A DNA stretch of 41,470 bases from a virus. The stretch lies in the IMG/VR virus record IMGVR_UViG_3300010401_000022, positions 1-41,470 of that record; one strand, 5' to 3'. Position 1 is the first letter of the stretch. Each line of letters begins with the position of its first letter. Shown here one piece after another: positions 22,279-38,826 of the stretch. The notes under the pieces are model-generated. The model was not told where the DNA came from. It worked only from the letters and a program-made list of their open reading frames with translations, and searched no databases. Position numbers and translations under genes: made by a program.

Positions 22279-22494
22279 CTATGCTGTCGGCGCTTCCCCT
22301 GACGCCGAGCGTGCGAACGCCAGCCGCACGGCATCATCGGCCAAGATCGCATCGCACAGCGCCGTCCGGTCGGCCGGCGTCATGTCCGGATGGACCGCGG
22401 CGATCATCGCACCAATCTTCCCGGCGACGTCCACGCCAATGCCGATGAGCACCTGGGCAATCTGAATCCAGGCTTGCGCGCGTGATAGGTCCAT
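22279..22494 (-). CDS. Small hypothetical protein, last gene of lysis block
   Basis: 71 residues. An amphipathic N-terminus (RAQAWIQIAQVLIGIGVDVA) followed by soluble helix (PADRTALCDAILADDAVRL). ATG 22494 shares its A with the preceding stop (TAATG), so it is coupled to the membrane protein gene. Function unknown. Confidence 0.68.
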   Translation of the reverse strand: MDLSRAQAWIQIAQVLIGIGVDVAGKIGAMIAAVHPDMTPADRTALCDAILADDAVRLAFARSASGEAPTA

Positions 22495-23267: not shown

Positions 23268-23279
23268 CACGGCACTCCC

Positions 23280-23741
23280 TTATGCAAACTTGAAAAACGT
23301 CTGATGCCCCAAGGTGCAAAGCGGCGTCTGCCCCTGCAGCATCTTGACCGTGCCCGAGAGCCACAGCGCCGTCGTGACATAGTGATTCGCGCCGCCCGTC
23401 GGGTCTACCCCGACCCCGCCGCGCACCTGATCGACCAGGGCGAGGAGTTCTGTCCTGTGGCTTTCTTCGGCCCCCTGGGGTGGCTCGGTGAGGAGCCGTT
23501 CCGCAAACGCATACGTCTCATCCGTGTTTGGACTGCGTTCCCACCAGCAGGAGAACTGCCAGGGCGTCAGACAGACGCTCCGCCAACTGGTGCCCCACCA
23601 GGCCGGATGCATCACCCGGTTCCGGATGACCCACAAGACGCCCAATTGCCCCGCTAAGGGTTCCCCGCGGGCCTCGCCATAGAGCGTGCCGCAGGCCGCC
23701 GTGCGGTCACTGAGCCGGCTGCGGATGTCTTCGGATGTCAT
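23280..23741 (-). CDS. SleB-type cell-wall hydrolase (endolysin)
   Basis: 153 residues. TLYGEARGEPLAGQLGVLWV followed by IRNRV and a CLTPWQFSCW motif are the signature of the Hydrolase_2/SleB family: the Glu of Y-G-E-A-R-G-E is the catalytic acid. The protein cleaves peptidoglycan (SleB-type enzymes are lytic transglycosylase-like or amidase-type). No signal peptide is seen, so release needs a holin; the small membrane genes upstream are candidates. ATG 23741 shares bases with the previous stop. Confidence 0.88.
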   Translation of the reverse strand: MTSEDIRSRLSDRTAACGTLYGEARGEPLAGQLGVLWVIRNRVMHPAWWGTSWRSVCLTPWQFSCWWERSPNTDETYAFAERLLTEPPQGAEESHRTELLALVDQVRGGVGVDPTGGANHYVTTALWLSGTVKMLQGQTPLCTLGHQTFFKFA

Positions 23742-23896
23742 GCGTGCCCATTGCCGTTCTGCACTTCTTTCGTGAGCGCGCGAAATTGCTCTTGCTGCCA
23801 GCGGTGCCGGCGTCCTTCCCGCAACCATTGAAAGAGAAAGCCCACCACCGTGGTGGCGAAAATGAACAGGTGGCCCCACAGGGTTGGATGATCCAT
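23738..23896 (-). CDS. 52-residue membrane protein before the endolysin
   Basis: ATG 23896 (sharing its A with the previous stop, TGATG); stop overlaps the endolysin ATG by four bases. One span (LWGHLFIFATTVVGFLFQWL, about 6-25), then a basic helical tail (REGRRHRWQQEQFRALTKE). Size, single span and position make it a holin or holin-partner candidate. Confidence 0.62.
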   Translation of the reverse strand: MDHPTLWGHLFIFATTVVGFLFQWLREGRRHRWQQEQFRALTKEVQNGNGHA

Positions 23897-24153
23897 CAGA
23901 ACCGGCGTTTCGTCGTCATCTCATGCGCTAAGGTTTGGAATTTCGCTTCCATCATGTCCATCCGCTCAAACAGGGTGGCGCCGCCGTTGCTCCCGATGAG
24001 CTTTTCAATGCTGAGGATCACCCGTTCAATCCGCTTGAGCCAGCGATAGAACCAGACGAGGCCCCGCCAGGCGATCCCCACAAAGAGCCCCATCCCCGTG
24101 AGCGCGGCCACGACTTGCCCCGAGGTAGTGATCAGCCCCAACAGAGCAGGCAT
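23896..24153 (-). CDS. Holin-like small membrane protein
   Basis: 85 residues. One long span (SGQVVAALTGMGLFVGIAWR to about residue 38), a basic cytosolic helix (RWLKRIERVILSIEKLI) and an acidic end with ERMDMMEAKFQTLAHEMTT. It overlaps the metalloprotease gene by 22 bases. This is the best candidate for the class-III-like holin that releases the endolysin; unproven. Confidence 0.6.
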   Translation of the reverse strand: MPALLGLITTSGQVVAALTGMGLFVGIAWRGLVWFYRWLKRIERVILSIEKLIGSNGGATLFERMDMMEAKFQTLAHEMTTKRRF

Positions 24154-24830
24154 ACCAGCCCCAGTCCGACCGCGTGTGGTTGCCGCACCCGCCATACTTC
24201 CCTGGGCGCCCAATATAACCGGCCCCCATCCGCGGGCGGAATCGGGATCAAGCTCATGGTCGTGAGCGCCCAGCCGACCCACCCCGCCACCATGAGCGGG
24301 TGCCACGCCCGCCCCTGCGTCAGCAACCGCACGATGCCCGGTTGCCAGAACTGCCCCATGACATGCGCGCCCGCGAGCGGCACCGACCACCACGCGCCCA
24401 CGACCGTGCAGATAGCCGTGACGGCAAAACCGGCCATCAGGCCCGACCAGGCCACATCCCATCGCGCTAAGGGCGACGGATACGGCCCGCGCACACGCAG
24501 GACGGCGCCAGCCAAGCCCAAGGCCGGCAACCAGAGCCAATGCACGGCGTGCGCGAGACTGATCGGCACGGGCAAGAGCCACGGGCCACGCGTCGGAATC
24601 TGGTAGCGTCGGCAGGCCCACCAATGGCCGCCTTCATGGGCGAGGATAATCGCAAAGACGGGCACGGTATACCAGAGGGAGAGGCGGAGATTCGCGCCGC
24701 CCCACGCGACGGGCCGCACGCCGTGGGCCATCGTGAACATCGCGGCGTAAATGACGCCCGCGCGCCCAATGGTCAGGACGCCTGTGCCCCACAAGACCGC
24801 GAGGATGAGGCGTCTACCCGCCGTCACCAT
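24132..24830 (-). CDS. M50/site-2-protease-like intramembrane metalloprotease
   Basis: 232 residues with about six membrane segments. ILAHEGGHWWACRRYQ near residues 62-77 contains the zinc-binding HEGGH (H65-E66-x-x-H69); WDVAWSGLMAGF near 124-135 is the conserved second-core segment; and HPLMVAGWVGWALTTMS, then LIPIPPADGGRLYW near 194-207 supplies the third ligand Asp in a P-x-x-x-x-D-G motif (Ser where Asn is common). Together these are the full S2P active-site set. It lies between a zinc-like small gene and holin-like genes. S2P proteases cut membrane proteins, for example anti-sigma factors; the target here is unknown. Confidence 0.87.
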   Translation of the reverse strand: MVTAGRRLILAVLWGTGVLTIGRAGVIYAAMFTMAHGVRPVAWGGANLRLSLWYTVPVFAIILAHEGGHWWACRRYQIPTRGPWLLPVPISLAHAVHWLWLPALGLAGAVLRVRGPYPSPLARWDVAWSGLMAGFAVTAICTVVGAWWSVPLAGAHVMGQFWQPGIVRLLTQGRAWHPLMVAGWVGWALTTMSLIPIPPADGGRLYWAPREVWRVRQPHAVGLGLVCLLCWG

Positions 24831-25044
24831 GTTTGTCGCCAAAGCCGTCGCACTTGATCCCTTGCGGGCCACAGGCCGCCTGCCGTTCGTCTTCCGTGAA
24901 GCCGTTGTCCGCCCACCACTGGGCATCGTTACAGAGGTCACAGGTAATGCCGCCCGGATCGGCGTGAGGGCCACCATGATGCCGGTAAAGGGCTTCGGCC
25001 AAACGCTGCTGCAGATCGTGATCAGGACGATCAATCGGGGACAT
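24814..25044 (-). CDS. Small CxxC protein upstream of the metalloprotease
   Basis: 76 residues, AGGAG upstream of ATG 25044. CDLCNDAQWWADNGF with a first HHGGPH cluster and C-terminal CGPQGIKCDGF gives a possible zinc site. It overlaps the metalloprotease start by 17 bases, indicating coupled translation. Function unknown. Confidence 0.65.
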   Translation of the reverse strand: MSPIDRPDHDLQQRLAEALYRHHGGPHADPGGITCDLCNDAQWWADNGFTEDERQAACGPQGIKCDGFGDKHGDGG

Positions 25045-25053
25045 GGGTCGCTC

Positions 25054-25386
25054 CTATCCGCCCTTCTTCGGGGTGGCCGTCAAGCTGCCCGTGGCGGGGT
25101 CAAACGTGAAGCCGGGGTGATTGCCTTCAATGAAGGCTTTCGTGGCGTCGATTTCCTGCCGGATGGTTTTCTCGTTCGCGGCTTGCTCGAGCGGTCCCAA
25201 GGCCGTCTGACACTCGCGATTTTTGCGGATCGTGTCGATCAGTTGCGTCTTGAGGGCATAGTTCTCGACGCGGAGCCGTTCCAAGTCGCTCAGCGCGGGA
25301 GGTTCGTCGGCGCGGACCATCGTAAACGCCGCCATCAGCAGCAGAATGATCAGGAGAAATCCGAGGGCTTGCAGCGCCGCCTTCAC
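25054..25386 (-). CDS. Membrane-anchored coiled-coil protein (i-spanin-like)
   Basis: 110 residues, GTG 25386 overlapping the tail-fibre stop (GTGA). N-terminal signal-anchor (ALGFLLIILLLMAAFTMV, about 7-24) followed by LSDLERLRVENYALKTQLI, a heptad-like periplasmic coiled coil, then a Cys near residue 60. The topology is that of an inner-membrane spanin (lambda Rz), which with an outer-membrane lipoprotein fuses the membranes. It lies at the head of the lysis block. The matching o-spanin is not obvious. Confidence 0.6.
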   Translation of the reverse strand: MKAALQALGFLLIILLLMAAFTMVRADEPPALSDLERLRVENYALKTQLIDTIRKNRECQTALGPLEQAANEKTIRQEIDATKAFIEGNHPGFTFDPATGSLTATPKKGG

Positions 25387-26624
25387 TGTTTGTCCTCCAA
25401 CTTCCGAATGCGCGCCTCTTGGTCCTGCACGACTTTCAACAGCGCAGCTGTCACGCCGTCGTAATGGATGCCGTTCAGTTCGCCGCGGTAGAACGTCGAG
25501 AAGGCATTGCGGTTGTCGCCCAAGCCGGCCGCCGCGGCATAGACGTCATCCGCAATCAGGCCGGCGTGGAGTTCTCGGCTCGTCTTGTCGAGGAACGTCA
25601 CGGGCTGGAACTGGAGCACCGTGCGCGCCGTGTCGAGGCTCATGGGCGTAATGGCGTCCTTCAACCGACGCAATGAGGAACAGGTCGTGAGCGTATCTAA
25701 TCCGCTAATCGTCGTCGTGTCGTAACAGAGCGTATTGGAGGTGGCCGAAGCGAGCGTCTTGACGCCATAATGCCCGCTCGTGTCCCATGTCGCCTGCGCC
25801 ACGCTGGCATTGAGCAAGGAGAAGACGGTCGATCCGGACGGCAATTGGATCTGCCAGGTAGACGTTGTGCCGCCCGTGCGTTGGAAGTTCACGAGGAGAT
25901 GGCTGGTGCCGCTCTGCTCGAAGTAGGCCAAGACCGACGTCGCCGCGTTGTAACTCGCGACAAAGGTCGCATCGATCGTCCCGGTCACGCGCATCGTGCC
26001 AATCACGTCCAGCGTTTTGCCAGGGGCGGTCGTGCCAATCCCGACCGCCCCTGTAAATGCGGCGGCATAGTTGTTACTGGCGCCGGAGGGGGCCTCGATC
26101 GTTATGCCATAGCCGTTCGTAACCGTGCCGCCCAGCACGATCGTCGGCATCCGCAACCCGATCGCATTCGTAATCGTCGCGTTGGTCCCGGCCGAGGGGG
26201 CACCGGCAATGTTCAGCGTGGCCGCCGTCGTCAGGATGGACGCCCCGGCAAAGGCATAGGTCGGAGAGGTGATGCGATAGGCCCGCTGTAAGGCTAAGGC
26301 GCCGGTCGAGAACTGCACGACGCGACTAATGTTGAACAAGACATCCGTAGCCTCTGTGCCCGCGGCGAGTGTCGTATCCGCGGGGCCGGTGAGCGAGAAC
26401 AGCGACGGCGATCCAGAGGTCGATCCGGCCGGCGTCAAGACGACTGGCCCAGCGGCAATCCCCCCCGTGCATCCCGTAGTCGTGCCCACCGCACAGCCAA
26501 TTAAGGCACTCGCCGCGGTCGTGTCCGTCGTCGTGAGGGTCGAGACGGCGAGCGGCCGCGCAGCCACTTGGGCCAGCGCCGCGGCGGGCCAGAGGAGCAA
26601 GGCGAGGAGGATCAATCGCTTCAT
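25383..26624 (-). CDS. Tail fibre/spike with Sec signal and S74 chaperone
   Basis: 413 residues. Starts with a clear signal peptide (MKRLILLALLLWPAAALAQ). The middle is Thr/Ser/Ala/Gly-rich beta-structure, typical of fibre shafts. The C-terminal 100 residues (SSLRRLKDAITPMSLDTA, VTFLDK, HAGLIADDVYAAAA, HYDGVTAALLKVVQDQE) are the endosialidase-type S74 intramolecular chaperone, which cleaves itself after trimerisation. It is probably the receptor-binding fibre or spike. A Sec signal on such a protein is unexpected. Confidence 0.85.
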   Translation of the reverse strand: MKRLILLALLLWPAAALAQVAARPLAVSTLTTTDTTAASALIGCAVGTTTGCTGGIAAGPVVLTPAGSTSGSPSLFSLTGPADTTLAAGTEATDVLFNISRVVQFSTGALALQRAYRITSPTYAFAGASILTTAATLNIAGAPSAGTNATITNAIGLRMPTIVLGGTVTNGYGITIEAPSGASNNYAAAFTGAVGIGTTAPGKTLDVIGTMRVTGTIDATFVASYNAATSVLAYFEQSGTSHLLVNFQRTGGTTSTWQIQLPSGSTVFSLLNASVAQATWDTSGHYGVKTLASATSNTLCYDTTTISGLDTLTTCSSLRRLKDAITPMSLDTARTVLQFQPVTFLDKTSRELHAGLIADDVYAAAAGLGDNRNAFSTFYRGELNGIHYDGVTAALLKVVQDQEARIRKLEDKQ

Positions 26625-27367
26625 GACAACCGTTTCAGGCCAAGGCCCCAGGCATACCCAGCCCCGCCGCCCGTGACCTTCAGCTTCACGCAGTAGCTTT
26701 TCGGCGTGCCCGCCGCGGCAAAGGTGATCGTGCTGGAGGTGACGAGGGCGCCCACCGAGCTCGAACTTGAGATCGTGACCAGCGCCGTATCCGGCGAGCC
26801 ATCGCTGAGATTCACGAGCGCCGCCGAAGTCGTGCCGCCGCCCGTCGCGCCCAGCATCCCCTGCAAGGCATAGGTGCCCAGCAGATTCGCGCTATCGATC
26901 GTGACAATCGACGAGCCAGCGTGGCACTTGTCGAACGTCGCGCCACTCGGGTAACTCGATGAAACGACGTAGGCATCAGCCGTGCCAAAGAACGGTTGGG
27001 CCGTGACGCCGATCAGGATGTTCGCCAGCGCGACGGACGAAATGTTGTCCTGCGACCAGACGGTGACGCCAGCCGACGTCTTCAAGATAAACAAGTAACT
27101 GGCCGCTTGGAGGTAGACGACCGCGCGCCCGGCTGAATCCAAGACGATCGGATTCGCGTTCTGATGCCCCGGCGCCAGATCGACGTTGTTGTAAGTCGCC
27201 AGGGGCGTCGTGGTGCCCGCGACGTAGGTGTAGAGGAAGCCGCCGGCCAGCGGCACGCCCGTGTTGCTGAAGAACTGGACCACCGGAATTGGCATGACCG
27301 TGCCCTGGCCGTGGGCCGGGCCGATCGCCAGTGCGGCGAGCAGAAGGGCGAGGAGCAGGCGCTTCAT
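26621..27367 (-). CDS. Virion-type protein with Sec signal peptide
   Basis: 248 residues. Signal peptide MKRLLLALLLAALAIGPAHGQ, then PVVQFFSNTGVPLAGGFLY near 27-45, a motif common in phage tail-fibre and spike N-termini (F-x-D-x-x-G-x-P-L-A-G-G). The rest is beta-rich (SAALVNLSDGSPDTALVTIS). Its ATG overlaps the stop of the preceding gene. Likely a tail-fibre or head-binding component. Only its export signal is unusual. Confidence 0.74.
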   Translation of the reverse strand: MKRLLLALLLAALAIGPAHGQGTVMPIPVVQFFSNTGVPLAGGFLYTYVAGTTTPLATYNNVDLAPGHQNANPIVLDSAGRAVVYLQAASYLFILKTSAGVTVWSQDNISSVALANILIGVTAQPFFGTADAYVVSSSYPSGATFDKCHAGSSIVTIDSANLLGTYALQGMLGATGGGTTSAALVNLSDGSPDTALVTISSSSSVGALVTSSTITFAAAGTPKSYCVKLKVTGGGAGYAWGLGLKRLS

Positions 27368-28653
27368 TGTCCGCCTCCGCTCACGAGCGCATTCATGGCC
27401 GCTTGCAGGACTTCTGGCGCCACGCCGCTCACTTGCGAGGCCATCTGATACATGCCGCGGGCCAAGAGGGATTTCACCATCGGACTCCGATCGACGAGCG
27501 CCGAGAGAAACGTCAGCGGCTTGTGCGTGACCCAAGCAAACCCCACGGGATCGCGATTGCCAGCCACGGGCACGCGCCGGCTGGCGGCATCGGTCGCGGC
27601 CATGAGCGCCGAGTCTTGGGCGTTCAGGGCGCTCACTTCTGGCACCTGAATGGCGATTTCTTCCTTGAGGCCACGCGCGAGCGCCTTTTGCGCCTCTTTC
27701 GAGGCGGAACTCATCTCGCCGTAGCTGTTCTTGAGGGCCTGATACGTGCCCGTCTTCATGGCCTGCGCCTCTTGGACCGGTATCATGCCACGACTCGCGC
27801 TGCCGCCTAGCTGCAAAAAGTCCGATACGCTGTTCCCGACCGCTTCGAGTGGCGCCGTGGGATTGACCTGTTGGGCTTGCCGGGCCGCGACGGGGAGCAC
27901 GCGTGCCGCGACGAGTTTCGGGTCAATCTCGGCGCTGGAGGACCGAATCGCATCCCGAATCTGCCCGTTTGTGGCATCCAAGAGTGATTGGAGCTTCGAC
28001 AGCCCGCTTTCGGTCACATTGATGCCGTTATCAAGGAACGTCTTGACCAGATCCGGCGCCGTCGTGCGGTATTGGTCGAGTAATGCTTTCGAGGGCTTCA
28101 CGGCGCTCTGCATCAGCCGCTGACTCGCCGCGGAGGCGAGCGCATTCACGCCGCGCCCGACTCCTTCGCCGGACGCGGACGCTAACCCTTGCTCCCCGAT
28201 TTGTTTCGCGGACTCCATTGGCGTCGGAATGTTCCCTGGCGTGTCGGCGTTCGCCACGTCATGCGCCAAGAGGCCCGCGCTGGCCCCACCCGCGCCCATC
28301 AGCCCGGCGAATCCAATGGCGGGCGCGGCCGACATGCCGCCCGTCAACGGCGCCGTCGCGAGTCCCGCGGCAATCGCGCCCGCCGCGGCCGGATGATCCA
28401 GAATCGTCTGCGCCAGCTTGGTATCGAGGCCAGTCTTTTGGAGGAGCCCGCCCAACCCTGGAATCGAACGAATCGCGCTCTCGACTACTGCGCGGGTATT
28501 ACTCTGCGGATCGGGCTGCGAGGGTTTCGGCGCCTCAGATTTGACGTCCAGCCCAGACGTCCAATCTGTTTTGACGTCTAGGCCGCTCGTCCAATCGGAT
28601 TGCGTGGGGGCCTGCACCTGACCGATGGATTGGATGACGGGATTGAACGGCAT
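27364..28653 (-). CDS. Putative internal/ejection protein
   Basis: 429 residues, no signal. N-terminus contains a tandem repeat of DWTSGLDVK. A glycine/alanine-rich, weakly hydrophobic region (GAIAAGLATAPLTGGMSAAP) at about 90-125 may insert into membranes, and the rest is long helix (LLDQYRTTAPDLVKTFLDN, EAQAMKTGTYQALKNS). This resembles the ejection proteins of P22-type phages (gp7/gp16/gp20), which enter the cell envelope with the DNA. The similarity is by composition and position. Confidence 0.66.
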   Translation of the reverse strand: MPFNPVIQSIGQVQAPTQSDWTSGLDVKTDWTSGLDVKSEAPKPSQPDPQSNTRAVVESAIRSIPGLGGLLQKTGLDTKLAQTILDHPAAAGAIAAGLATAPLTGGMSAAPAIGFAGLMGAGGASAGLLAHDVANADTPGNIPTPMESAKQIGEQGLASASGEGVGRGVNALASAASQRLMQSAVKPSKALLDQYRTTAPDLVKTFLDNGINVTESGLSKLQSLLDATNGQIRDAIRSSSAEIDPKLVAARVLPVAARQAQQVNPTAPLEAVGNSVSDFLQLGGSASRGMIPVQEAQAMKTGTYQALKNSYGEMSSASKEAQKALARGLKEEIAIQVPEVSALNAQDSALMAATDAASRRVPVAGNRDPVGFAWVTHKPLTFLSALVDRSPMVKSLLARGMYQMASQVSGVAPEVLQAAMNALVSGGGQ

Positions 28654-30173
28654 TAGCGCACCACGACCGCCCCGCGCGCCTTCGCCTTCTCGACGTCGCT
28701 ATTCGCAATCGCCACGACACGACCATCCGGCCCACGCATCATTGTGTAGCCGGTCGGCGCCGTGCTGACGGCTGGCGCCGTCGTCGGGGCGGCCGGTGTC
28801 GGGGTCGAAGGCTGCACACCTTCGGGGATGCGCGATTCAATCGCCTTCTTCTGATCGGCCAGCGAGCTATGCACGTTCGCCATGTCTGTCTTGAGCACTT
28901 GGGCAACGGCTTTCGCTTGCCCGAAGGTGAAATCCTTCGCGTTGAAGCTGGACACTTGCGCGCGAGCGGCGTCCGTCAATTGGCCCGAGAGTTTCGGATC
29001 GTTCGTGACGCGCGCAATCTCGCGGTTGGCGACGTCGCGCGCCGCATTGACCGCGGCCATGTTCGCGCTCCCGACCATCTTTTCGTCCAGCATCCGCACG
29101 GGAATGTTCAGCCAGGGCACGCCCGTATCGGGAATCTTCGAGGCCAGCGACAGGAACTGATCGAGGTTCTTGTTCGCCGTGCTTTCGAAGGCCGAGAGGG
29201 TGTCAAGCGTGCTCGTGACCTTGTTGAGCGAATCCTTATTCGCCTTGTAGATGGCGGCATTCGAGGCCAGCGTCACATTCGGAAACAATTCCGAGGCGCG
29301 GTTGATGATCTGGCGCCGGTCGTTCGCCGCGGCCTGCCCCATGCCGAGCGGCGGCAACTGGCCCGTCGTCGCAAACATCTCCGCGACCTTATCGAGCGAT
29401 TTCGGCGTGAGGCTGGAGCCTTCTTCGGCGCCGGTCGCAATCGGCTTATTCGTCTGGCCGCTGAAGCGTTGATTCCCGAGCGTGTAATCCGCGGGCGCCG
29501 GTTCTGGTTTCGGATTGTTCGCGATCTGCTTCCCGCTCGCGTCGAAGCGGGTCTGGCCCTCTCCGAGCGTAAACGGCGCGCTCGGCTGCTCAGGGCTCGT
29601 GAGTTTTTGGGCGAACTTCTTAAAGCCCTCGGGATCTTGCTGCCACAATTGCTGAAATGGCGCCACGTCCTGCTCATGGCTTTTCGCGACTTCAAAGAGC
29701 CCATTGACGATCATGGGGTTGAAATCGGCCGCAATCGCGTGGCCCGCCAGCGTGCGCGCATAGCCCAGTTGGGCCTGCTGATACGCTGTCTCCGCTTCCT
29801 TGAGCTTGAGATGAGAAGTGTTGGCCTCATCCAAGCCCTTCATCAGATCAGGCACAGCGGCGCCCAAACCCATCTTGACCAGATTTTCACTCAGTTTGCT
29901 CTGATCGACTTGCTTCTTCTCTGGATCCCAACTGGCGCGATAGGCATCGGCCAGCATGGTGCTTTGCTGCTGTTTCTGTTGCGCTTCGACCACCTTCTGG
30001 CGGCGTTCGTCTTCCAGGGCCTGCTGCTGCTTCAACTGCTGCTGGCGATATTCCTGCTCCTGCTGCGCCGTGGCGCGCGACTGCTGGAATTGCTGCGCCT
30101 GCTGCAGCACCGCCCACGGGTTCTGCGCGGGTTGCGGCTGAAAGACCGAAAGTGGGATCTGTGGGTCGATCAT
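28653..30173 (-). CDS. Putative internal/ejection protein, Gln-rich N-terminus
   Basis: 506 residues. Residues 20-75 are extremely Gln-rich coiled coil (QQAQQFQQSRATAQQEQEY and QQKQQQ). The central and C-terminal parts are helical and soluble, and the last 45 residues are Pro/Ala/Thr-rich before a short GYTMMRGPDGRVVAIAN domain. Located between the 1118-residue protein and the gene at 27364, in the P22-like ejection-protein position. Confidence 0.66.
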   Translation of the reverse strand: MIDPQIPLSVFQPQPAQNPWAVLQQAQQFQQSRATAQQEQEYRQQQLKQQQALEDERRQKVVEAQQKQQQSTMLADAYRASWDPEKKQVDQSKLSENLVKMGLGAAVPDLMKGLDEANTSHLKLKEAETAYQQAQLGYARTLAGHAIAADFNPMIVNGLFEVAKSHEQDVAPFQQLWQQDPEGFKKFAQKLTSPEQPSAPFTLGEGQTRFDASGKQIANNPKPEPAPADYTLGNQRFSGQTNKPIATGAEEGSSLTPKSLDKVAEMFATTGQLPPLGMGQAAANDRRQIINRASELFPNVTLASNAAIYKANKDSLNKVTSTLDTLSAFESTANKNLDQFLSLASKIPDTGVPWLNIPVRMLDEKMVGSANMAAVNAARDVANREIARVTNDPKLSGQLTDAARAQVSSFNAKDFTFGQAKAVAQVLKTDMANVHSSLADQKKAIESRIPEGVQPSTPTPAAPTTAPAVSTAPTGYTMMRGPDGRVVAIANSDVEKAKARGAVVVR

Positions 30174-33100
30174 CTAGGCATACCAGCCCGGCGACACCGG
30201 GGGCGGATTCGAGTAGCGAATGAACGGATTACTCGGCTGAGCGGCCGGCGCTTGCGGCACGCCGCGGAGCCCATAGTAGGCGCCAATCCCACCCGCGACG
30301 GTGCTCGGAATGCCGCCCGCGTAGTTGATCCAGGGGTTCGCGGCGCCCACTTGGCCCGAGGCGTTGATGTTGCCGATCCCCGTGTAGAGATTGCCCACGT
30401 TGCTGCCGTAACTCCCGAGGCCCGCGTTAATCCCATTGACCGCGCCCGCGCCCAAGCCGGCTAGTGCGAGGTTGTTATTGAACGGCTGCTGATACTGGGC
30501 GTTGTAGTTGATCCCGTAAGTGTTCGCCGCCTGATTGTAGGCTTGATTCTGCGCGCCCAAGCCGAACTGCGACCAGGCGAGGCCATTGTTCGCCGCAAAC
30601 TGGGCCTGCTGCACTTGGCTCTGATAGGCGTTCCAGGCCTGATCGTAGTTGAACTGCGCGCCGAACTGATTGGCGTTCTGGTTGAGGGACGCGGCATTGT
30701 AGTCGGCCTGCGAGTTCGCCTGAAATGCGCCGAGATTCGCGGCCGAGTTCGCCTGATAGGCCCCCAGTTGGCTGTTCCAGTTCTGCTGCCAGGTGTTCGC
30801 CGCCTGCCCATAGCCCTGCCCCTGGTAGGCGAGTTGGGTATTCGCGTTCAGCCCGTAGGTGCTGGCGGCGTTCTGATACTGCTGTTGGGCCAACTGCGCG
30901 GCGTTGCCGTAGTTGGTCTGATAGGCGGCGAGGCCCTGATTGAACCCCTGCTGATTGCCGGCCAGTTGGTTCTGATAGGCGTTCGAGCGGAAGCCTTCAT
31001 TCGCCTGCGTCGTCGCGAGCTGATTGCCGAAGTTCGCCTGATTCGCGGAGAGCGCCTGTCCGAACTGCTGGTTGTTGTAGGCCAGCCCGGTTTGCGCGTT
31101 GGTGTCGTAGGCGTTCAGCCGGTTCTGCGCGTCATACTGCCCCGCCCCGAGCGCCTCGGAGAAGTTCTGCGCGTTGTAGAGCCGCTGGGTATCGGCATTG
31201 GTCTGATAGGCCGCCAGTCCTTCGGAGGCATTCGTCTGATGCGCGCCCAAGGCTTCCTGATAGCCGGCCGTGTCGTAGGCCAACCCCGTCTGGGCGTTCG
31301 TCTGATAGGCGTTCAGCCGGTTGCCTTCATTGAACTGTGCGGCGTTCAGCGCCTGTCCATACTGCTGCGCTTGGGCGTTCTGCTGCGTGGTCGTGTTCAG
31401 GCCGTAGGCATTCGCCGCTTGGCCGTATTGCGTGCCCTGCACGGCTTGCCGGGTCGCTTCGTTCGTCTGAAATGCGCCGAGGTTGGTCGCGTTCTGTGTC
31501 TGGTTCTGCGTGAGCGCCCGATTCCAGAGGTTTTGGAACTCGTTCGAGGCGTAGTCCTGCCCGTAGCCCTGGATGGCTTTGGCAGTGTCCCCGGTGAGCA
31601 GATTCCCCCGCGCGGCGGCACTGGCTTGGAGGGCTTTTTCGCCCTGCTGCAGTCGGAATTGGTAGCCGGGATCGTTCTGTTCCGTCGCGCCGGTGGGCGC
31701 CTGGAACTCGGTCGGCGTGAACGTCTTCGCGTCCGCCAACGTGTTGTAGTTGAACGTCCCCGGCGTCTGGAGGCCGCTATAGGTGAACTGATTCGCGCCC
31801 TGATACGCCCCCGGCTTCTGCAACGCCTGATACGTGAAGTCCTGTGGCTTCTGGTAGTTCTGGATGTTCCCCAGGGCCTGATAGTCCAGCGGCGCTTGCG
31901 CCTGAAAGGGGTCGGGCGTCTTGAGCGCCTGATAGGTGAACGGATTCGGGTCGTTCAGGTGGGCGGCCGGACCGTAATCCCCAGGCGCGGCGGCGCCCGT
32001 GGCGTTCCCGCTCGAGGCATCGGGCGCGGCGCCCTGCGACTGCGGATTCCAGTCCGAGCCAAACGCTGGCCCTTGCGGCTGGGGGACGCCAGGCAAGGGG
32101 CCTTCGGGGTTGGCCGGCTTCGCCTGTGAGGGCGCGGGGGTATCCCAGACCCAATCGCCTGTAGACGGGTCCGTATGCGCGCCTGGGGGCGGGGCGCCGT
32201 GATGGTTCGGATAGTTCGCATCGCGCGGGTCCGGGCCGGCGTCGGCGGGCTGTCCGTTCGTCGTGTCTGTGCCAGGGGCGCCAGCCGGCGCGGCAGTGAG
32301 CGTGGCGCCTTGGCTCCCGTTCCCAGGTTGATTGTAGGTCGGCCGATTGAGTTGGGAGAGATCGCCGCTACTCGTGCCTTGGCCGGCGAAGTTGTAGCCG
32401 CCGCTCGTCGGATTGGCGTTGTAGGTCGGTTGGTTCAGTTGGGACAGATCGCCGCTGCTGGTGCCTTGGCCCGTAAAATTGTAGTTGCTATTTTGAGGCA
32501 CGCCCCACGGCTGCCCGTTCACGGTCATGCCGCCAGGGCCATTCCCGCCGGCCATGAGGGCGCCCGACTGGGGACCGAGTGCCATGCCGGTCTGACCGCC
32601 GAGCGTGTTGGGGCCTTGCGGAATGGGGCCGAGATTCGGATTGCCGTTACCGGGATTTTGTCCCGAGAAGTTGTAATTCCCGCCCTGACTTGACCAAGGA
32701 TTCCCTTGTGCCGACTGCGGCACTTGGGGAGGCGGACGCATCGCCCCGTTCTGCGGCGTCGTCGGACTCGCCCCGAGCGCCGGGCCCCCGTTGTAACTGA
32801 ACGGCGCCGCGGGTCGAAAGCCGGGCGGCGGCTGGAACGTCTGCGGCTGCTGCAGTGGCGCGTAGGAAAACGGCGTCGGCGCGTTCAGCGTGCCCGGCCC
32901 GGCATACTGTTGCGGCTTGTATTGGGACGGGCTGTAGCTCTGGCCCTGGAACGGCGCCAACGGCGTGAAGTTGCCCGAGCCGCCATAACTCCCCCCGCCG
33001 CCACCGCTCCCGCCCCCACCAGGGCCGCCGAGAATCCGCCCCGTCAGATAGCCGGTATCGCCCCCCGCGCCTTGCAAGGCTTCATTCTGCCAATACTGCC

Positions 33101-33530
33101 AGTCGCCCGTGCCCGAGCCACGACCGCCCGGCGTAATCCCTCCCTGGACGAACGCTTGCGCGACCCACGGCTGCATGCCGGGATTCGCGGCGATCATGCG
33201 CTGGACGGCATCGGAGTTCGGCTGGGGCGCCCCTTGCGAGGGCGATCCGCCCCCATTCGGATTGAAGGCGGGCGGCGTGCCGCCTTGGCCGCCCCCGCCG
33301 CCAATGAGTCCACTCAAGCTCGTGCCGGGCGCGGGCGTGGGGATATTGAACAACTGCACCCGCTGGGCGGGCGTCAGCGTGGCGTATTCGGCCTGCTGTT
33401 CCGGCGTGAGAGCGGCCCAGTTAAAGGCCCCTTGGAGCCCGGAACTGCCGCCCTGGGTGTTGTAGGTGCCGACACCCCCGCCGCCCATGTAGCCGGTGAA
33501 CTGGCCGGCGTTGTAGGTAGGCGCGGGCAC
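30174..33530 (-). CDS. Giant Q/N-rich putative DNA-transfer protein
   Basis: 1118 residues from GTG 33530, which overlaps the preceding stop (TAGTG) and has GGAGG eight bases upstream. The first 450 residues are Gly/Pro/Gln/Asn-rich and low complexity. Near residue 630-685, NDPGYQFRLQQGEKALQASA followed by ARGNLLTGDTAKAIQGYGQD is a hallmark of phage DNA-transfer/injection proteins. Residues about 686-1026 show an 11-residue period over some 31 units (AYQTNAQTGLA type), predicting a very long helix bundle. Probably ejected to form part of a trans-envelope conduit; inference from family and structure pattern. Confidence 0.78.
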   Translation of the reverse strand: MPAPTYNAGQFTGYMGGGGVGTYNTQGGSSGLQGAFNWAALTPEQQAEYATLTPAQRVQLFNIPTPAPGTSLSGLIGGGGGQGGTPPAFNPNGGGSPSQGAPQPNSDAVQRMIAANPGMQPWVAQAFVQGGITPGGRGSGTGDWQYWQNEALQGAGGDTGYLTGRILGGPGGGGSGGGGGSYGGSGNFTPLAPFQGQSYSPSQYKPQQYAGPGTLNAPTPFSYAPLQQPQTFQPPPGFRPAAPFSYNGGPALGASPTTPQNGAMRPPPQVPQSAQGNPWSSQGGNYNFSGQNPGNGNPNLGPIPQGPNTLGGQTGMALGPQSGALMAGGNGPGGMTVNGQPWGVPQNSNYNFTGQGTSSGDLSQLNQPTYNANPTSGGYNFAGQGTSSGDLSQLNRPTYNQPGNGSQGATLTAAPAGAPGTDTTNGQPADAGPDPRDANYPNHHGAPPPGAHTDPSTGDWVWDTPAPSQAKPANPEGPLPGVPQPQGPAFGSDWNPQSQGAAPDASSGNATGAAAPGDYGPAAHLNDPNPFTYQALKTPDPFQAQAPLDYQALGNIQNYQKPQDFTYQALQKPGAYQGANQFTYSGLQTPGTFNYNTLADAKTFTPTEFQAPTGATEQNDPGYQFRLQQGEKALQASAAARGNLLTGDTAKAIQGYGQDYASNEFQNLWNRALTQNQTQNATNLGAFQTNEATRQAVQGTQYGQAANAYGLNTTTQQNAQAQQYGQALNAAQFNEGNRLNAYQTNAQTGLAYDTAGYQEALGAHQTNASEGLAAYQTNADTQRLYNAQNFSEALGAGQYDAQNRLNAYDTNAQTGLAYNNQQFGQALSANQANFGNQLATTQANEGFRSNAYQNQLAGNQQGFNQGLAAYQTNYGNAAQLAQQQYQNAASTYGLNANTQLAYQGQGYGQAANTWQQNWNSQLGAYQANSAANLGAFQANSQADYNAASLNQNANQFGAQFNYDQAWNAYQSQVQQAQFAANNGLAWSQFGLGAQNQAYNQAANTYGINYNAQYQQPFNNNLALAGLGAGAVNGINAGLGSYGSNVGNLYTGIGNINASGQVGAANPWINYAGGIPSTVAGGIGAYYGLRGVPQAPAAQPSNPFIRYSNPPPVSPGWYA
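30453..31475 (-). repeat. Hendecad (11-residue) coding repeat block
   Basis: About 31 consecutive 11-codon units inside the 1118-residue protein. Units 1-15 share a (A)Y/F-Q-T-N-A-x-x-G-L-A type frame; from about unit 17 the same pattern continues shifted by about four residues (…LGAYQA-N…). Degenerate at DNA level, so it is an old protein repeat, not a recent tandem array. Confidence 0.7.
32332..32484 (-). repeat. Two 66-bp imperfect repeats in the low-complexity region
   Basis: 32332-32397 and 32419-32484 are near-identical (87-base offset) and code for YNF(T/A)GQGTSSGDLSQLN-type units. Confidence 0.7.
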
Positions 33531-33973
33531 TAACTCGCCCTCCAGGGATTCGGCGGTGCCGTCTGATAGGGGTTGCGCGGCGCAAACGGGTTCGGCGCCG
33601 GCTGCCCGGTCCACGGCTGGATGTTCGGCGGCGGCAGATAGGGCTGCGTCGGGCCACCAGGCGGCGTCATCTGCGGCGCCATCGCCGGGCCATTGAACAC
33701 CGGATTCCCGCCGTTCGGATTGAACGCGGGCGGGCGCTGTCCGGCCATTTGCCCCAACGCAGTTAGCCCCTGCTGCCCCAACTGCTGATAGGGCGCGGCG
33801 TTCTGCTGCTGCTGCGCTATGATCTGACGTTGCAAGGCGATGGCCTGGTTACTCGCGTCTCGCTGCGAGTTGGCCGCCCCTTGGGCCGTCTCGGAGGCTT
33901 TGTGGGCGGCATAGGCCCCCACCCCGGCCTGCACGCCCGAGATGATTAGCGGGATGGCGACAGCGGCGGGCAT
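33530..33973 (-). CDS. Small companion of the DNA-transfer protein
   Basis: 147 residues. A short hydrophobic N-terminus (AVAIPLIISGVQAGVGAYAA) is followed by a Gln-rich helix (ALQRQIIAQQQQNAAPYQQL, LGQQGLTALGQMAGQ), then Pro/Asn-rich text. In many phages this N-terminal type (alanine-rich helix then A-P-Y-Q-x-L-G) is part of the same protein as the downstream DPGYQFRL segment; here it is a separate gene. GGAGGAG precedes the ATG. The phrase PPAFNPNGG occurs in both proteins. Confidence 0.7.
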   Translation of the reverse strand: MPAAVAIPLIISGVQAGVGAYAAHKASETAQGAANSQRDASNQAIALQRQIIAQQQQNAAPYQQLGQQGLTALGQMAGQRPPAFNPNGGNPVFNGPAMAPQMTPPGGPTQPYLPPPNIQPWTGQPAPNPFAPRNPYQTAPPNPWRAS

Positions 33974-34338
33974 GGCTCCTCCTGAATCGGCATGACGAAA
34001 TGGGCCGGCAAACGCACGGCGCCGACCTTCTCGAGTAACGTGCGAATGGGCTCCCCGATGCAGGCCGTGAGCACGGCGCGATAGCCTGACGCTCGAGCCT
34101 GCTGGCGCATGGCCCGAAGCAACCGCCGGCCGACGCTCGGCCGCTGCCGGAAGGCCGGCGCAATCCACAACCCTTCGGCATGGAGCGCCGTCAAGAGCGC
34201 CCAACAGCCGACGATCGCCCCGTCCTCTTCCACGACCATGACCGTCGTGTGCGTGGGCGGCAAGAGCGGCCACACCGTCTCGAGCTCGGTGCCGGCGAGC
34301 CGATGCCACTCCTCGGGCGGCAAGATCCGCGTGGTCAC
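33946..34338 (-). CDS. GNAT-type acetyltransferase-like protein
   Basis: 130 residues, GTG 34338 (GGAGG just upstream). Strand MVVEEDGAIVGCWALLTALH, then LWIAPAFRQRPSVGRRLLRAMR, the acetyl-CoA-binding helix region of the GNAT fold (x-x-P-x-x-R-x-x-x-V-G-R-x-L-L), and GYRAVLTACIGEP. Overlaps the next gene by 28 bases. Similar GNAT-like proteins occur in phage tail modules, with no settled function. Confidence 0.74.
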   Translation of the reverse strand: MTTRILPPEEWHRLAGTELETVWPLLPPTHTTVMVVEEDGAIVGCWALLTALHAEGLWIAPAFRQRPSVGRRLLRAMRQQARASGYRAVLTACIGEPIRTLLEKVGAVRLPAHFVMPIQEEPCPPLSPSR

Positions 34339-34808
34339 AGCGCCTCCAAGACGACACCCAAGGCATACTGCATCGTCGTCACGCCCGTGGAGGCGTAGGT
34401 CGTGGCATACGTGACGTTCGTGCTCGCATCCACTAGCATCGTCACGCTTTGGCCCTCGTGCGTCGTCGTCAGGTTCGTCGTGAGGTTCGTGCCGCTAAAC
34501 GACTGCGCGACCCCGCCCGACGTCCACGCCAAGAGCACCTGAATCCCGCTCGTGGCGGATGAGGCGCGCGTCACTTGGACCGCGTAACTGGCCCGATAGA
34601 GGCCCGCGGCCAACGTGCCTGGATTGAGCGCCGTCGCCGCGATCGACGCGGCTTGCGCGGTGAGCGCGGCATCGCCCACGATGCCCACGGCGGCATTCAC
34701 CATCTGTCGGAGCCGGTTCAGCCACTGATACCAGACCTGTTGCAGCTGCCAGAGCTTCGACTCGGCGGCATTGATTGGCGTCGTGTTCGGGACGGGATCG
34801 AGCGCCAT
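34335..34808 (-). CDS. Tail-module structural-type protein
   Basis: 157 residues, ATG 34808 sharing an A with the gp10-like stop (TAATG). N-terminal helix (WQLQQVWYQWLNRLRQMVNA) then a beta-rich Thr/Ser region (YAVQVTRASSATSGIQVLLAW; NLTTNLTTTHEGQSVTML). It looks like a small structural protein, possibly stabilising the tail hub. Function inferred from position only. Confidence 0.68.
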   Translation of the reverse strand: MALDPVPNTTPINAAESKLWQLQQVWYQWLNRLRQMVNAAVGIVGDAALTAQAASIAATALNPGTLAAGLYRASYAVQVTRASSATSGIQVLLAWTSGGVAQSFSGTNLTTNLTTTHEGQSVTMLVDASTNVTYATTYASTGVTTMQYALGVVLEAL

Positions 34809-36277
34809 TAGCTCACCGCCCGATAGGCGCCCGGCAGATCGGCGCCCAGAATGCTCCACGGCACGGGATCAGAGACAAACGCCTCAAACACGCGCCGTCC
34901 GCCTCGCGCCGCCCCGGTGGGGGTCCAAAACACGCGGGCATTGTATTGGCCCTGCTTGCCCATCGGCGTCAGGATCGGCCCGACAAACGTGTGTCCCGCG
35001 TCGTTGGAGTAGCGCATCGCGACCATCGGATCGCTGCCCTGCCCGGTTTCGATGCCCACGCCCGTCTCTTGCGTGATCTGGAACGTCGGGAAGAAGGTGT
35101 AGCGGTCGAACCGGCCGCCGTCCTCCCCCGTCAACACTTGCGCCCGCCGCAACCGGCGAATCCCGGTGCCATCCACGTCGGTGTAGAGGGTCGTCGATGC
35201 CTCGTAGGTGTTCCCCGTGGAACGATCCAGCACGAGGTGCTTGTTGAAGGCGTAGGCATGGAACATCGGCCGATAGGCGTCAAAGCGATTCTGGGGGCCA
35301 TTCCAGAAGCCGCGCTGATGCCACAACTGCTCGGTCGCATCAAAACACCACGTCACATTGGCGGACGGGAAGGTGACGAGGTAGAACTGATGGCCCTGAT
35401 CCTGATAGCTCCAGCCCACGGCATCCGTCACCGTCGCATAACCTTGCAAGGCGAAGTCGATCGCGTCGGTGCTAATCTTCTCCAACGCCACGCTGCCCTC
35501 TGGCGAGCGCACGACCATACGCGAACCTTGGGCGTTCTCTTCCACCCACACGAGCGAGCCGCCCACGTTCGTGACCGAAAACGGCGCCGATGTGCCATGA
35601 CTGAGGAATCCGCCCGCAATGGGCGCAAACGGCACGCCTGATCCCGCGCTTGGGTCCGGTGTCCAGACTTCGGACGTCTGAGAACCAATGAGATAAATCA
35701 GGCCGCCCACTTGGTTGACCGAGAGTGCCACCCAGCGGTCCGACCCTTGTAATCGCTGCGCGACATTGGCGGGATTAAAACTGGTCCCATCGAGCAAGTC
35801 GGAGACGCGCAAGGTGGACGTGGCGGCATCCAAGACGAGAAAATAGCCCCCGATATAGGCCACGACGGTCGCACCAGAGGTCAGGGACGTCGTGAGCACA
35901 TTCGAGCCCAAGTCGAGAATGTGGAGTTGATCCCCGCTGCAAATCGCAAGTTGGCCCCCAGCATCGCCATTACTCGCAAACGTCGCTGGGTTCGCATCGC
36001 TGCCGACCGTGCCGCGATCAGTCAAGGAGCCGTCCGACATGAGTTCGTAGAGAATGGCGCCGACGACTTCGAAGCAACGACCGTTCTGCGCCCAAATGTT
36101 TCGGCCGGGCGATTCCGTCGCAGAGGCAAAGGTGCGGAAGCCTGGACAGGAATACAACTGTGCCGGGCTGTTGGCCGCCGATCCCATCCGCTCGAGATAG
36201 AGATTGATGCACGCTTCGCAGTTCGCATTGAGCGAGCGCGTCCGATAGGCCGGGCCGACGAAGTTAGCGAACTGCAT
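34808..36277 (-). CDS. Packaged-DNA stabilisation protein, P22 gp10-like
   Basis: 489 residues from ATG 36277 (P22 gp10: 472). N-terminal FVGPAYRTRSLNANCEACIN then LYLE is the characteristic start of the family (G-x-x-Y-x-x-R-S-x-x-x-x-x-x-x-x-x-N-L-Y-x-E), and repeated beta-strand blades (VGGLIYLIGSQTSEVW; SLVWVEENAQGSRMVV; YATVTDAVGWSYQDQGHQFY) follow. In P22 gp10 bridges the gp4 ring and the tail needle. An upstream GTG at 36307 would add 10 residues; the chosen start gives the usual family N-terminus. Confidence 0.87.
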   Translation of the reverse strand: MQFANFVGPAYRTRSLNANCEACINLYLERMGSAANSPAQLYSCPGFRTFASATESPGRNIWAQNGRCFEVVGAILYELMSDGSLTDRGTVGSDANPATFASNGDAGGQLAICSGDQLHILDLGSNVLTTSLTSGATVVAYIGGYFLVLDAATSTLRVSDLLDGTSFNPANVAQRLQGSDRWVALSVNQVGGLIYLIGSQTSEVWTPDPSAGSGVPFAPIAGGFLSHGTSAPFSVTNVGGSLVWVEENAQGSRMVVRSPEGSVALEKISTDAIDFALQGYATVTDAVGWSYQDQGHQFYLVTFPSANVTWCFDATEQLWHQRGFWNGPQNRFDAYRPMFHAYAFNKHLVLDRSTGNTYEASTTLYTDVDGTGIRRLRRAQVLTGEDGGRFDRYTFFPTFQITQETGVGIETGQGSDPMVAMRYSNDAGHTFVGPILTPMGKQGQYNARVFWTPTGAARGGRRVFEAFVSDPVPWSILGADLPGAYRAVS

Positions 36278-36653
36278 GGACGTTGTGGGCGGCGAGCGCC
36301 GCCCCACTCCCGGCCACGGCGAGACTCAAGCCGATGGCCCACTTCGGATGCGTGTCGCGCAAACGCCAGATCAAGGGAATGGCCGCGGCCGTGAATACGG
36401 CCTTCGCGCCCAAGACGAGCGTCGGCCGATTCCCAAAGACGGGATTGGCTTCATAGCCGCCATGACGCACGCCCCAGACGGTGGTCGCGGCATCGGCGGA
36501 TTGTCCTGCCACCGAGGCGATGAGCATCCCCGTCAGCACGCGATGCGACACGGGACGCGATTGGCCGAACGCCCGATCGACAACGACGCCGGCCACAAAC
36601 GCGAGGACCAGCGCGAGGATCAAGAGCGAGCGGCGAAAGAGTTTGTAGGACAT
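36264..36653 (-). CDS. Small multi-span membrane protein in tail module
   Basis: 129 residues with a signal-anchor (LLILALVLAFVAGVVVDRAF), then GQSADAATTVWGVRHGGYEANP with a further two or three hydrophobic helices (VLGAKAVFTAAAIPLIWRL, WAIGLSLAVAGSGAAL). The D-A-x-T-T-x-x-x-x-R-G-G-x-E-A-N-P pattern resembles small DUF5658-type membrane proteins. It is encoded between structural genes, yet is unlikely to be a virion component. Shares one base with the upstream stop (TAATG). Confidence 0.66.
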   Translation of the reverse strand: MSYKLFRRSLLILALVLAFVAGVVVDRAFGQSRPVSHRVLTGMLIASVAGQSADAATTVWGVRHGGYEANPVFGNRPTLVLGAKAVFTAAAIPLIWRLRDTHPKWAIGLSLAVAGSGAALAAHNVHAVR

Positions 36654-38065
36654 TACTGAATCCCGATGCAGTGATAGGCGTAGATGTCGCCTGTGGCTGG
36701 AGCGGTGCCGTTCGTCACCACCGTGATCGCCGTCGTGCTCGTGACCGAGGTGAGCACGGTCTTACCCACCGCCATGCCGGCTTTGTTCATCCACACGGTG
36801 CAGGCGGGGGCGGCGGCCCACGTGGAAGCAAAGGTGATCTGAAAACCAGACGCAGGCGTCGTGCCAAGCGTGACTGAGCCGGCCGTGTCACTTGATCCCG
36901 TCGAGAACGTGCCGTTCCCCGTGCCGCAACTGTTCGCGGCGGTGCAAGTTGGGGTGCCCGTCATCTGGAACTTGACGAGCGAGGAGTTCGCGTTGTTAGC
37001 AACCGCCAAGACACCATCGGTATTCAGATTCATCTGCGTCTTATTGGCGGCAGCCCCTCCTCCGACAATGACGTTGCCGACTAGGATGTTGCTTGTCGAT
37101 TGGATATTCGCCGCCTGCAACGTGACCGCGACTGCCAAGCCGCCCTTCTGCACATAAAACTCATCCGTCGCGCCGCCCGCGCCGCCGAGGATTTGGAAGT
37201 AGCGACTGCTCGAGGCGCTGGCGGTTTCGGTGAAGGCGTAGGAATTGCCGATGAACGAGACGCCGCCTGCGTTCCACGTCTGGGTGCCGCTGATAAGGGG
37301 GTTCGATGTCGTGACCGTGCCGCCTGTCGCGGTATAGAGTGGCGACACCACCGACGTGCCGAAGTAGCCGGTGCGGAAGGCTGTGCCGGACGCGCCGAGA
37401 TCCCCAGCGTTATTCGACGCCGCCGACAGGCTCGTCACAGTCGGTGTGGCGGTGCAGGTGGGAGGGGCACCGCCCGCCAATACGGTGCCCGCCGTGCCGC
37501 AGACGACGGTCGTCGGCGTGCCCGTCGTCGTCGTGTTGTAGACCAAGCCCGTCGCCAGCGCCCCGAGGACTTTGGCATTCGGCAACCGGACATCGGCCGT
37601 CGCAATCCAGTAGGTGGCCGAGAGATCCGGATGGCTCACGCCACTCGGGGAGAGGCTTTTCCCGGCCGTCGCGCTGAGCGTGGCTGTTCCGCTCGTATAG
37701 GATGTCATCCGCACACGCAGACCAGTGATGCCGCTATTGGCGATCGAGAACTGGCCGCCCGCGGTCGTCGTGCTGCCGGCCGTCCAATCAGCCAAGTTGA
37801 TGACGGACGTGGACACCCAGGTCGAAGAGGTCGCCCCCTGCGTCTCAAACGTCAGTGTGCCGCTGAACGTCCCAGTGATCTGAACCGTGATGCTGGAATA
37901 CTGCGTCACGTCCCACACGGCACAGTCGGTGTTCTGAATGCAGGCCGAGCCTGAGGCTGCCGCGCCGGCCGTCTGCGGACTGGGCGCGATCTGATTGGGA
38001 TTCTGCGCTGCGGCCAGCGCGGGCCAGAGCGCCACGAGCAGATAGAGAATCAAGCGTCGTCGCAC
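36653..38065 (-). CDS. Virion-type beta-rich protein with Sec signal
   Basis: 470 residues, GTG 38065 with AAGGAG nine bases upstream. Signal peptide (RRRLILYLLVALWPALAAAQ), then VWDVTQYSSITVQITGTFSG and many Ala/Thr/Gly beta strands, with a C-terminal domain (FQITFASTWAAAPACTVWMN; TSVTSTTAITVVTNG) of a type found in phage fibres and in bacterial surface proteins. Expected to be a fibre, head or tail appendage. Third protein in this genome with an export signal next to structural genes. Confidence 0.72.
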   Translation of the reverse strand: MRRRLILYLLVALWPALAAAQNPNQIAPSPQTAGAAASGSACIQNTDCAVWDVTQYSSITVQITGTFSGTLTFETQGATSSTWVSTSVINLADWTAGSTTTAGGQFSIANSGITGLRVRMTSYTSGTATLSATAGKSLSPSGVSHPDLSATYWIATADVRLPNAKVLGALATGLVYNTTTTGTPTTVVCGTAGTVLAGGAPPTCTATPTVTSLSAASNNAGDLGASGTAFRTGYFGTSVVSPLYTATGGTVTTSNPLISGTQTWNAGGVSFIGNSYAFTETASASSSRYFQILGGAGGATDEFYVQKGGLAVAVTLQAANIQSTSNILVGNVIVGGGAAANKTQMNLNTDGVLAVANNANSSLVKFQMTGTPTCTAANSCGTGNGTFSTGSSDTAGSVTLGTTPASGFQITFASTWAAAPACTVWMNKAGMAVGKTVLTSVTSTTAITVVTNGTAPATGDIYAYHCIGIQ

Positions 38066-38076
38066 GGTGAGGCTCC

Positions 38077-38826
38077 TTAGAAGCGCCGAGGCACGGTCAG
38101 CCCCGTGCGGTAATTGAAACTTGGCCGACTGCGCGCATGCGCCGTCATCCCGCTATCGCGCGTGGCAAAGAGCGGCACGCGGTCATTGTCGCCAAAGATG
38201 ATCGCACGGGCTTGCCGCGCATCCCAGTCCAACTTGGGCGGAATGGCCGCCCCATACGCCCCCGCCAACCCTTCGGCTAAGGTGAGCGTGAGGGCTTCCT
38301 GCCAACCAGGCGGCACGTCCAGCGTATCGCTAATCGTGAGCGTATCCGACAGCACGTTCGCCACGACCAATTCAAGGCCATAGGCGATCGTCGGCAGCGG
38401 CCAGAGATAGATCGAGCCATTCGGCCAGTCCGGCGAGTAATAGAGGTCGGTCGGGAACGTCGTCGTCACTGCCTGCACGCTCTGGAGTTGCCACCATTGC
38501 CAATCGCGCAGCGTGAGGGGTGTGCGAATGACCGGCGAGACGTTGTTCAGAATGACGTTCGCGCCGTAGAGCTTCACGGGCCGTTGGGCGACCGTGAACG
38601 TCGCGCCACTCGGCCCGATCGTGCTGGGATTCAGATTCGGGACGATCGTTTCTTCAAGAAACGTGAGCGCCCAGACGGTTTGGCTATCGGCGTTCCAGAG
38701 ATTCAGCAGCCGCTGGAGCTTACGAACCGCCCAATCAGACGTGTCTGCATCCGGCGTCTGACCGACGCCGAACACCTGGATTTCCCGATAGGCGTCGGTG
38801 ACGAGGGTATCGACGGCAACACTCAT
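38077..38826 (-). CDS. Head-to-tail adaptor, P22 gp4-like
   Basis: 249 residues (P22 gp4 is 166; longer C-terminus here). N-terminus VDTLVTDAYREIQVFGVGQT then AVRKLQRLLNLWNADSQTVW is a typical gp4/tail accessory factor opening of a helical bundle; PTDLYYSPDWPNGSIYLWP and QEALTLTLAEGLAGAYGAAI follow. It closes the portal channel after packaging and docks gp10. Start ATG 38826. Confidence 0.84.
   Translation of the reverse strand: MSVAVDTLVTDAYREIQVFGVGQTPDADTSDWAVRKLQRLLNLWNADSQTVWALTFLEETIVPNLNPSTIGPSGATFTVAQRPVKLYGANVILNNVSPVIRTPLTLRDWQWWQLQSVQAVTTTFPTDLYYSPDWPNGSIYLWPLPTIAYGLELVVANVLSDTLTISDTLDVPPGWQEALTLTLAEGLAGAYGAAIPPKLDWDARQARAIIFGDNDRVPLFATRDSGMTAHARSRPSFNYRTGLTVPRRF

Follow-up and report, generated by a model that had tools for sequence, protein, structure and literature searches.

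Predicted Sec signal peptides on the tailspike-type and fibre proteins of a P22-like podovirus suggest that its virions are partly completed outside the cytoplasm

Assembly of tailed phages is taught as being wholly cytoplasmic until lysis. Virion proteins with Sec signals are familiar from inoviruses such as M13, whose coat and adsorption proteins are matured outside the cytoplasm and whose filamentous particles are extruded without lysis, whereas the virus described here is tailed, has dsDNA and lysis genes, and forms its head in the cytoplasm. A tailspike-type fold is combined with an export signal in Pantoea WceF, but this protein is bacterial, Tat-exported and encoded outside any phage structural operon (PMC7949094), whereas the present genes belong to a virus record with a P22-like structural module. 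The closest described proteins are the tailspikes of P22, Sf6, Pam1 and Pan3, which share with one protein of our virus, TSN, the head-binding domain (by profile and fold), a locus after the ejection genes, and P22-like portal and gp10-type genes. TSN differs from them in its predicted cleavable Sec signal and in being short, with a C-terminal domain that is weakly Pgp3-like, and its exported relatives differ in having extra, even-numbered cysteines. In the open-access literature, we found no prior report of signal peptides on tail fibres, nor of appendages exported in this way by tailed phages.

The window, i.e. the whole stretch of DNA analysed here, corresponds to a 41,470-base virus record of IMG/VR and belongs to a P22-like podovirus (Table 1). 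Its structural genes lie on the minus strand in the order large terminase, portal, scaffold-like, coat, head proteins, gp4-like adaptor and the fibre protein F3, followed by a DUF5658 membrane protein, gp10-like head closure, small proteins, three ejection-type proteins, TSN, the S74-like fibre and the lysis genes. This order and the homologues are those of P22-like podoviruses such as Xanthomonas phage PBR31, Rhodoferax phage P26218 and phage DSL-LC05. The DUF5658 gene is inserted between those of F3 and gp10, a pentapeptide-repeat-like protein is encoded in the early region, and the coat gene seems to be split over the two ends of the record, which suggests a circular or circularly permuted genome. 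The probable lysis region encodes cell-wall-hydrolase-like and spanin-like proteins and an M50 protease with intact motifs; a lipobox-like LLPGC is present within 22494-23270. The protease itself is real, but the link between it and the signal peptides that the sequence-only reading had hinted at did not hold up, because a motif search found no M50-like motif pair in other signal-bearing phages.

Table 1. Positions of the features discussed (window numbering)
Feature	Position	Strand	Basis or remark
Pentapeptide-repeat-like protein, early region	11614-12324		GADLRGANL repeats
Probable lysis region	22494-25386		
Peptidase M50	24132..25034	-	HEGGH and PPADGGR motifs; PF02163, E 1e-13
Probable inner-membrane spanin	25054..25386	-	sequence inspection: N-terminal hydrophobic helix, coiled-coil-like tail; inference
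S74-type fibre protein	25383..26624	-	domain searches; borderline C-terminal Peptidase_S74 chaperone domain, signal peptide, 4 mature Cys
Signal peptide of S74-type fibre	26571..26624	-	MKRLILLALLLWPAAALA, predicted cut before QV; heuristic and residue shuffles
TSN, tailspike-type protein	26621..27367	-	248 aa with signal peptide; only head-binding domain in the genome
Head-binding domain of TSN	27023..27307	-	mature residues 1-95; profile match, Foldseek, alignment
Signal peptide of TSN	27308..27367	-	MKRLLLALLLAALAIGPAHG, predicted cut before QG; heuristic and shuffles; GGAGG 6 nt upstream
Three ejection/internal-type proteins	27364..33614 (27364-28653, 28653-30173, 30174-33614)	-	position and homologues; without signal
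P22 gp10-like head closure protein	34808..36307	-	phrog_578, E 3e-77; without signal
DUF5658 membrane protein	36264-36653		
Fibre protein F3	36653..38065	-	470 aa, GTG start, signal peptide, 8 mature Cys; between gp4-like and gp10-like genes
N-terminal module of F3	37655..38002	-	alignment; C-x5-C near its start; common to signal-less marine phage proteins
Signal peptide of F3	38006..38065	-	VRRRLILYLLVALWPALAAA, predicted cut before QN; heuristic and shuffles; AAGGAG upstream
P22 gp4-like adaptor	38077..38826	-	phrog_12985, weak phrog_637; without signal
Coat gene, seemingly split	1-1000 and 41097-41470		C-terminal piece lies at the right end

The reading of the bare sequence had placed signal peptides on three virion-type proteins, and strong Sec/signal peptidase I signals were predicted at the start of all three, whose genes are on the minus strand. 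In each, an n-region rich in K/R leads into a long hydrophobic core, which ends in an A-x-A or A-x-G site with Q as the next residue. The predictor was a home-made heuristic used in place of SignalP; when checked on 44 E. coli proteins it called gspD, chiA and the pseudopilin gspG at scores of at least 8, missed fkpA and made one false call with a score below 7.5, and at a stricter cut it was positive for 8 of 447 ORFs neighbouring signal-less loci, some of which may be real. Among 20,000 residue shuffles for each protein, the observed score was reached by none for the S74-type fibre, 85 for TSN and none for F3. Sec translocation and efficient cleavage of the window proteins are predictions. 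Wrong start codons as a source of the signals were ruled out by the ribosome-binding sites and the domain register, and lipoproteins by inspection by eye, which showed no lipobox at the cut in the three window proteins; the S74 protein of another contig (L004) has an LAAC motif ahead of an ASA/Q site and could be a lipoprotein. Recent duplication of one signal among the three genes was also rejected, because the signal DNAs are only moderately alike. The start of the S74-like gene overlaps the upstream stop (ATGA), by which it is probably translationally coupled, and these genes overlap the late structural operon.

TSN sits in the tailspike position, 3′ of the ejection genes. A profile built from the N-terminal 100 residues of mature TSN and their homologues matched head-binding domains solved for the tailspikes of cyanophages Pam1 and Pan3 (7eeq, E 5e-16; 9vyg/9vyh, E about 1e-11 to 6e-13). 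Foldseek with the TSN model returned 1lkt, 7eeq, 9vyg and 7sg7 (TMt 0.68 for 7eeq and 0.65 for 1lkt), and the modelled fold matches the head-binding domains of P22, Sf6, Pam1 and Pan3; the model is of modest confidence, with a pLDDT of 62 overall and mostly 63–84 in the head-binding domain, with one block at 52. The C-terminal half of the model is weakly similar to the C-terminal domain of Chlamydia Pgp3. In PBR31 the N-terminal part of the homologous tailspike is apparently a virion-binding domain (PMC10975493). TSN itself would be bound to the tail in the virion. A single head-binding domain per genome was also found in five further genomes (G002, G004, G007, G008 and G009).

Signal-less relatives of TSN start exactly where its signal would be cut, with MATGTVMPVP or MASGTVMPVP in marine-type contigs (L018/L016) against AHG/QGTVMPIP in the window, and judged by this alignment the predicted signal is an add-on ahead of the head-binding domain. 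In the first set of 134 head-binding ORFs, seven were signal-positive by the heuristic, and one more (L114, cut after MMA) by eye. Comparison of the exported head-binding domain between two Acidobacteriaceae prophages, G002 and G831, gave a dN of 0.15 and a dS of 1.06, i.e. purifying selection, and thus the binding function of the exported domain appears to be kept. F3 follows the same add-on pattern: its N-terminal module has neither a signal nor a cysteine within the module in other phages, whereas the signal-positive versions (window, G002, G004 and G009) have C-x4/5-C near the domain start in 4/4 cases and the signal-less homologues in none. For the third protein, also a fibre protein, the S74 label given to it earlier is borderline: the PF13884 cut-off is 22 bits, and the protein scored 20.1 bits by hmmscan and 24.1 bits in the genome search. 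In Acetobacter phage phiAX1 (L200:26418-29312), two signal-bearing proteins with 4 and 6 cysteines are encoded between the coat and gp10 genes, which is the slot of F3, outside Acidobacteriota; one of them is annotated as a cycloisomaltooligosaccharide glucanotransferase.

Exported proteins favour even cysteine numbers (PMC7678975, citing earlier work). We counted cysteines in proteins that had been picked by signal beforehand, leaving out one G007 protein with 10 cysteines that runs off the fetched stretch. The mature cysteine count was even in 30/31 signal-bearing virion-type proteins (29/30 of those with any cysteine), compared with 33/72 signal-less spikes with cysteines and 14/24 core virion proteins of the same phages (Fisher p=3e-7 for signal-bearing proteins versus signal-less spikes, an exact value weakened by partial non-independence of the proteins). 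Odd counts were found in L116 and in Tunturi_1 gp16, and cysteine content was 1.85% in signal-bearing proteins versus 0.65% in signal-less spikes. The portal, scaffold, coat, adaptor, gp10 and ejection proteins of signal-positive phages had no signals, except for one of 35 core proteins, the product of the G009 coat gene, which probably has an overlong start. Most signal-positive phages have about three to four large signal-bearing proteins in spike, fibre or head-protein positions; G831 has only one by the heuristic. Among neighbouring ORFs within ±4 kb, signal frequency did not differ significantly between signal-positive and signal-less loci (2/41 versus 8/447), and the whole-genome counts of 24/151 versus 8/312 are descriptive only, because signal-positive genomes were chosen for carrying such genes. 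Two independent lines, the even-cysteine bias and the absence of signals from core proteins, argue for export of the fibre and spike proteins, which is probably real and well supported.

Among named genomes, signal-positive head-binding domains were found in 4/4 Acidobacteriota loci versus 0/30 others. Phylum scans added two signal-positive and one signal-less Acidobacteriota genome, and Pseudomonadota additions that were all signal-less, for totals of 6/7 Acidobacteriota loci versus 0/35 others (p = 1e-6); a portal-based scan added the Acidobacteriaceae prophage G831, whose spike is signal-positive. The Acidicapsa dinghuensis prophage (G002) lies on a 1.16 Mb contig of an isolate genome, so that misbinning is no issue there, and two other Acidobacteriota loci, as well as some of the loci outside that phylum, are on MAG contigs, short ones in the two Acidobacteriota cases. 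The host of the window phage is presumably a member of the diderm Acidobacteriota; the probable spanin and the cell-wall-hydrolase-like protein would fit a diderm host. A tree of the 100-residue domain, limited by few columns and by recombination, required five state changes, rejected a single signal-positive clade (AU p = 0.002) and placed the window sequence with signal-less sequences. Within these limits, repeated origin of the signal-positive head-binding domains is well supported. The claim that virion-type proteins carry genuine export signals is strengthened by the register of the homologues, the parity of the cysteines, the association with hosts and the repeated origin. A strictly Acidobacteriota trait was ruled out by signal-positive fibre-like proteins in phiAX1, in Xanthomonas phage PBR31 (orf035) and in a Sphingobium prophage. 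The Sphingobium chungbukense prophage (L123:4293-5660) encodes a 455-aa signal-bearing protein with 14 cysteines adjoining a signal-less tailspike, and contigs L003–L006 keep a signal-less TSN alongside a signal-positive S74 protein.

The window phage and unrelated soil Acidobacteriota viruses apparently export spikes through the host Sec system. Virus particles are normally built in the cytoplasm, and this export suggests that the virions are in part completed outside it. We propose that the exterior appendages (TSN, the S74-type fibre and F3) would be made as Sec precursors, cross the inner membrane, be cut by signal peptidase I and fold with disulfide bonds in the periplasm, while the cytoplasm would yield DNA-filled heads with gp4/gp10-type tails and no spikes. 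At lysis the holin would open the inner membrane, the heads would meet the waiting mature spikes, and the regenerated N-terminal head-binding domain would dock on the tail and complete the virion. Holes made by holins in the inner membrane are large. P22 heads and tail parts reportedly join in vitro (Israel, 1967, among the references of PMC3741392); a point against the model is that mature spikes might be diluted at lysis. The sequence-level elements of this scheme, namely the signals, domain identity, cut register, cysteine parity, exterior-only restriction, repeated origin and retained head-binding domain, are well supported; efficient cleavage, presence in virions, the timing of attachment, and docking once holin lesions open the inner membrane are inferred. 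We hold the model as a whole, from export, cleavage and periplasmic oxidation to joining at lysis, to have slightly better than an even chance of being right. The wider proposal that tailed phages of Acidobacteriota, and some others, build heads in the cytoplasm, while receptor-binding appendages are exported, oxidised, stored in the periplasm and joined at lysis, an arrangement that arose more than once by signal fusion exactly ahead of virion-attachment domains, could equally well prove right or wrong.

The main alternative, though an unlikely one, is that these proteins are exported and never enter virions, serving instead as secreted or periplasmic polysaccharide enzymes, or as receptor blockers or decoys late in infection. 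The export signature itself fits this, as do Pantoea WceF (PMC7949094), an enzyme of tailspike-like fold that a bacterium exports by the Tat route and thus an existing example of such a function, and the lone signal-positive tailspike-like gene of G001 amid hopanoid genes; but the exported versions retain a head-binding domain under purifying selection, a phage exporting the sole head-binding domain of its genome would have no recognisable tailspike, and the genes overlap the late structural operon, which argues against a role at the lysogen stage. Of the fates first suggested for the three proteins, addition to virions after lysis fits best, because the sole head-binding domain is on an exported protein and purifying selection is seen in exported homologues, and release or decoy functions fit less well. 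A distinctly improbable explanation is dual localisation, in which a minority would stay in the cytoplasm to be assembled normally while most would serve another purpose after export. It would account for both the conserved head-binding domains and the export, and is otherwise conjecture; cysteine parity and the cysteine pairs inside the domains point instead to an oxidised functional form. Finally, it is very improbable that the N-termini are not used for export, with ordinary assembly and a leader that is retained, skipped by an internal start or cleaved off in the cytoplasm, because, although a host protease removes the N-terminal leader of P22 gp7 according to its record and some genes have an ATG a few codons into the mature part, the A-x-A sites are textbook, many signal starts have good ribosome-binding sites, no conserved internal start lies at the mature N-terminus, and the even-cysteine bias is confined to signal-bearing proteins.

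If periplasmic completion is true, Sec-routed appendages would be a new assembly pathway in which lysis, a late event, becomes an assembly step, and disulfide-stabilised receptor-binding proteins would become possible. Signal-bearing spikes are also a sequence mark that may help to predict phages of Acidobacteriota, a phylum from which hardly any viruses are known. A cultured phage on which the model could be tested is Tunturi_1, a podovirus that was isolated on Tunturiibacter (PMC11924767). Like the window phage, it has Sec signals and even cysteine numbers in several large proteins of the tail region; its genome, of 63 kb, sets it apart. At least four large tail-region proteins of Tunturi_1 are signal-positive by prediction: gp12, gp13, gp14 (‘tail spike’) and gp17 (‘virion structural protein’), with 20, 10, 20 and 32 mature cysteines, respectively. 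Its gp16 (149 aa) has a signal and one cysteine, and its terminase, portal, coat, scaffold and first tail protein have no signals; the main text of its publication does not mention signal peptides (PMC11924767). In the first 50 kb each of Tunturi_3, Tunturi_4 and Tunturi_5, the annotated fibre proteins had no signals, and thus the trait is not required in Acidobacteriota phages. In Acidobacteriales 59-55 (L161:16628-18358), a lone signal-bearing tailspike-like gene is surrounded by hopanoid genes; phage genes were not detected in its vicinity, and it may have been domesticated. Another such gene (L165:12889-17640) lies ∼3 kb from an Sf6-type small terminase, probably in a prophage remnant, and has a close homologue in a second Acidobacteriota genome (L167).
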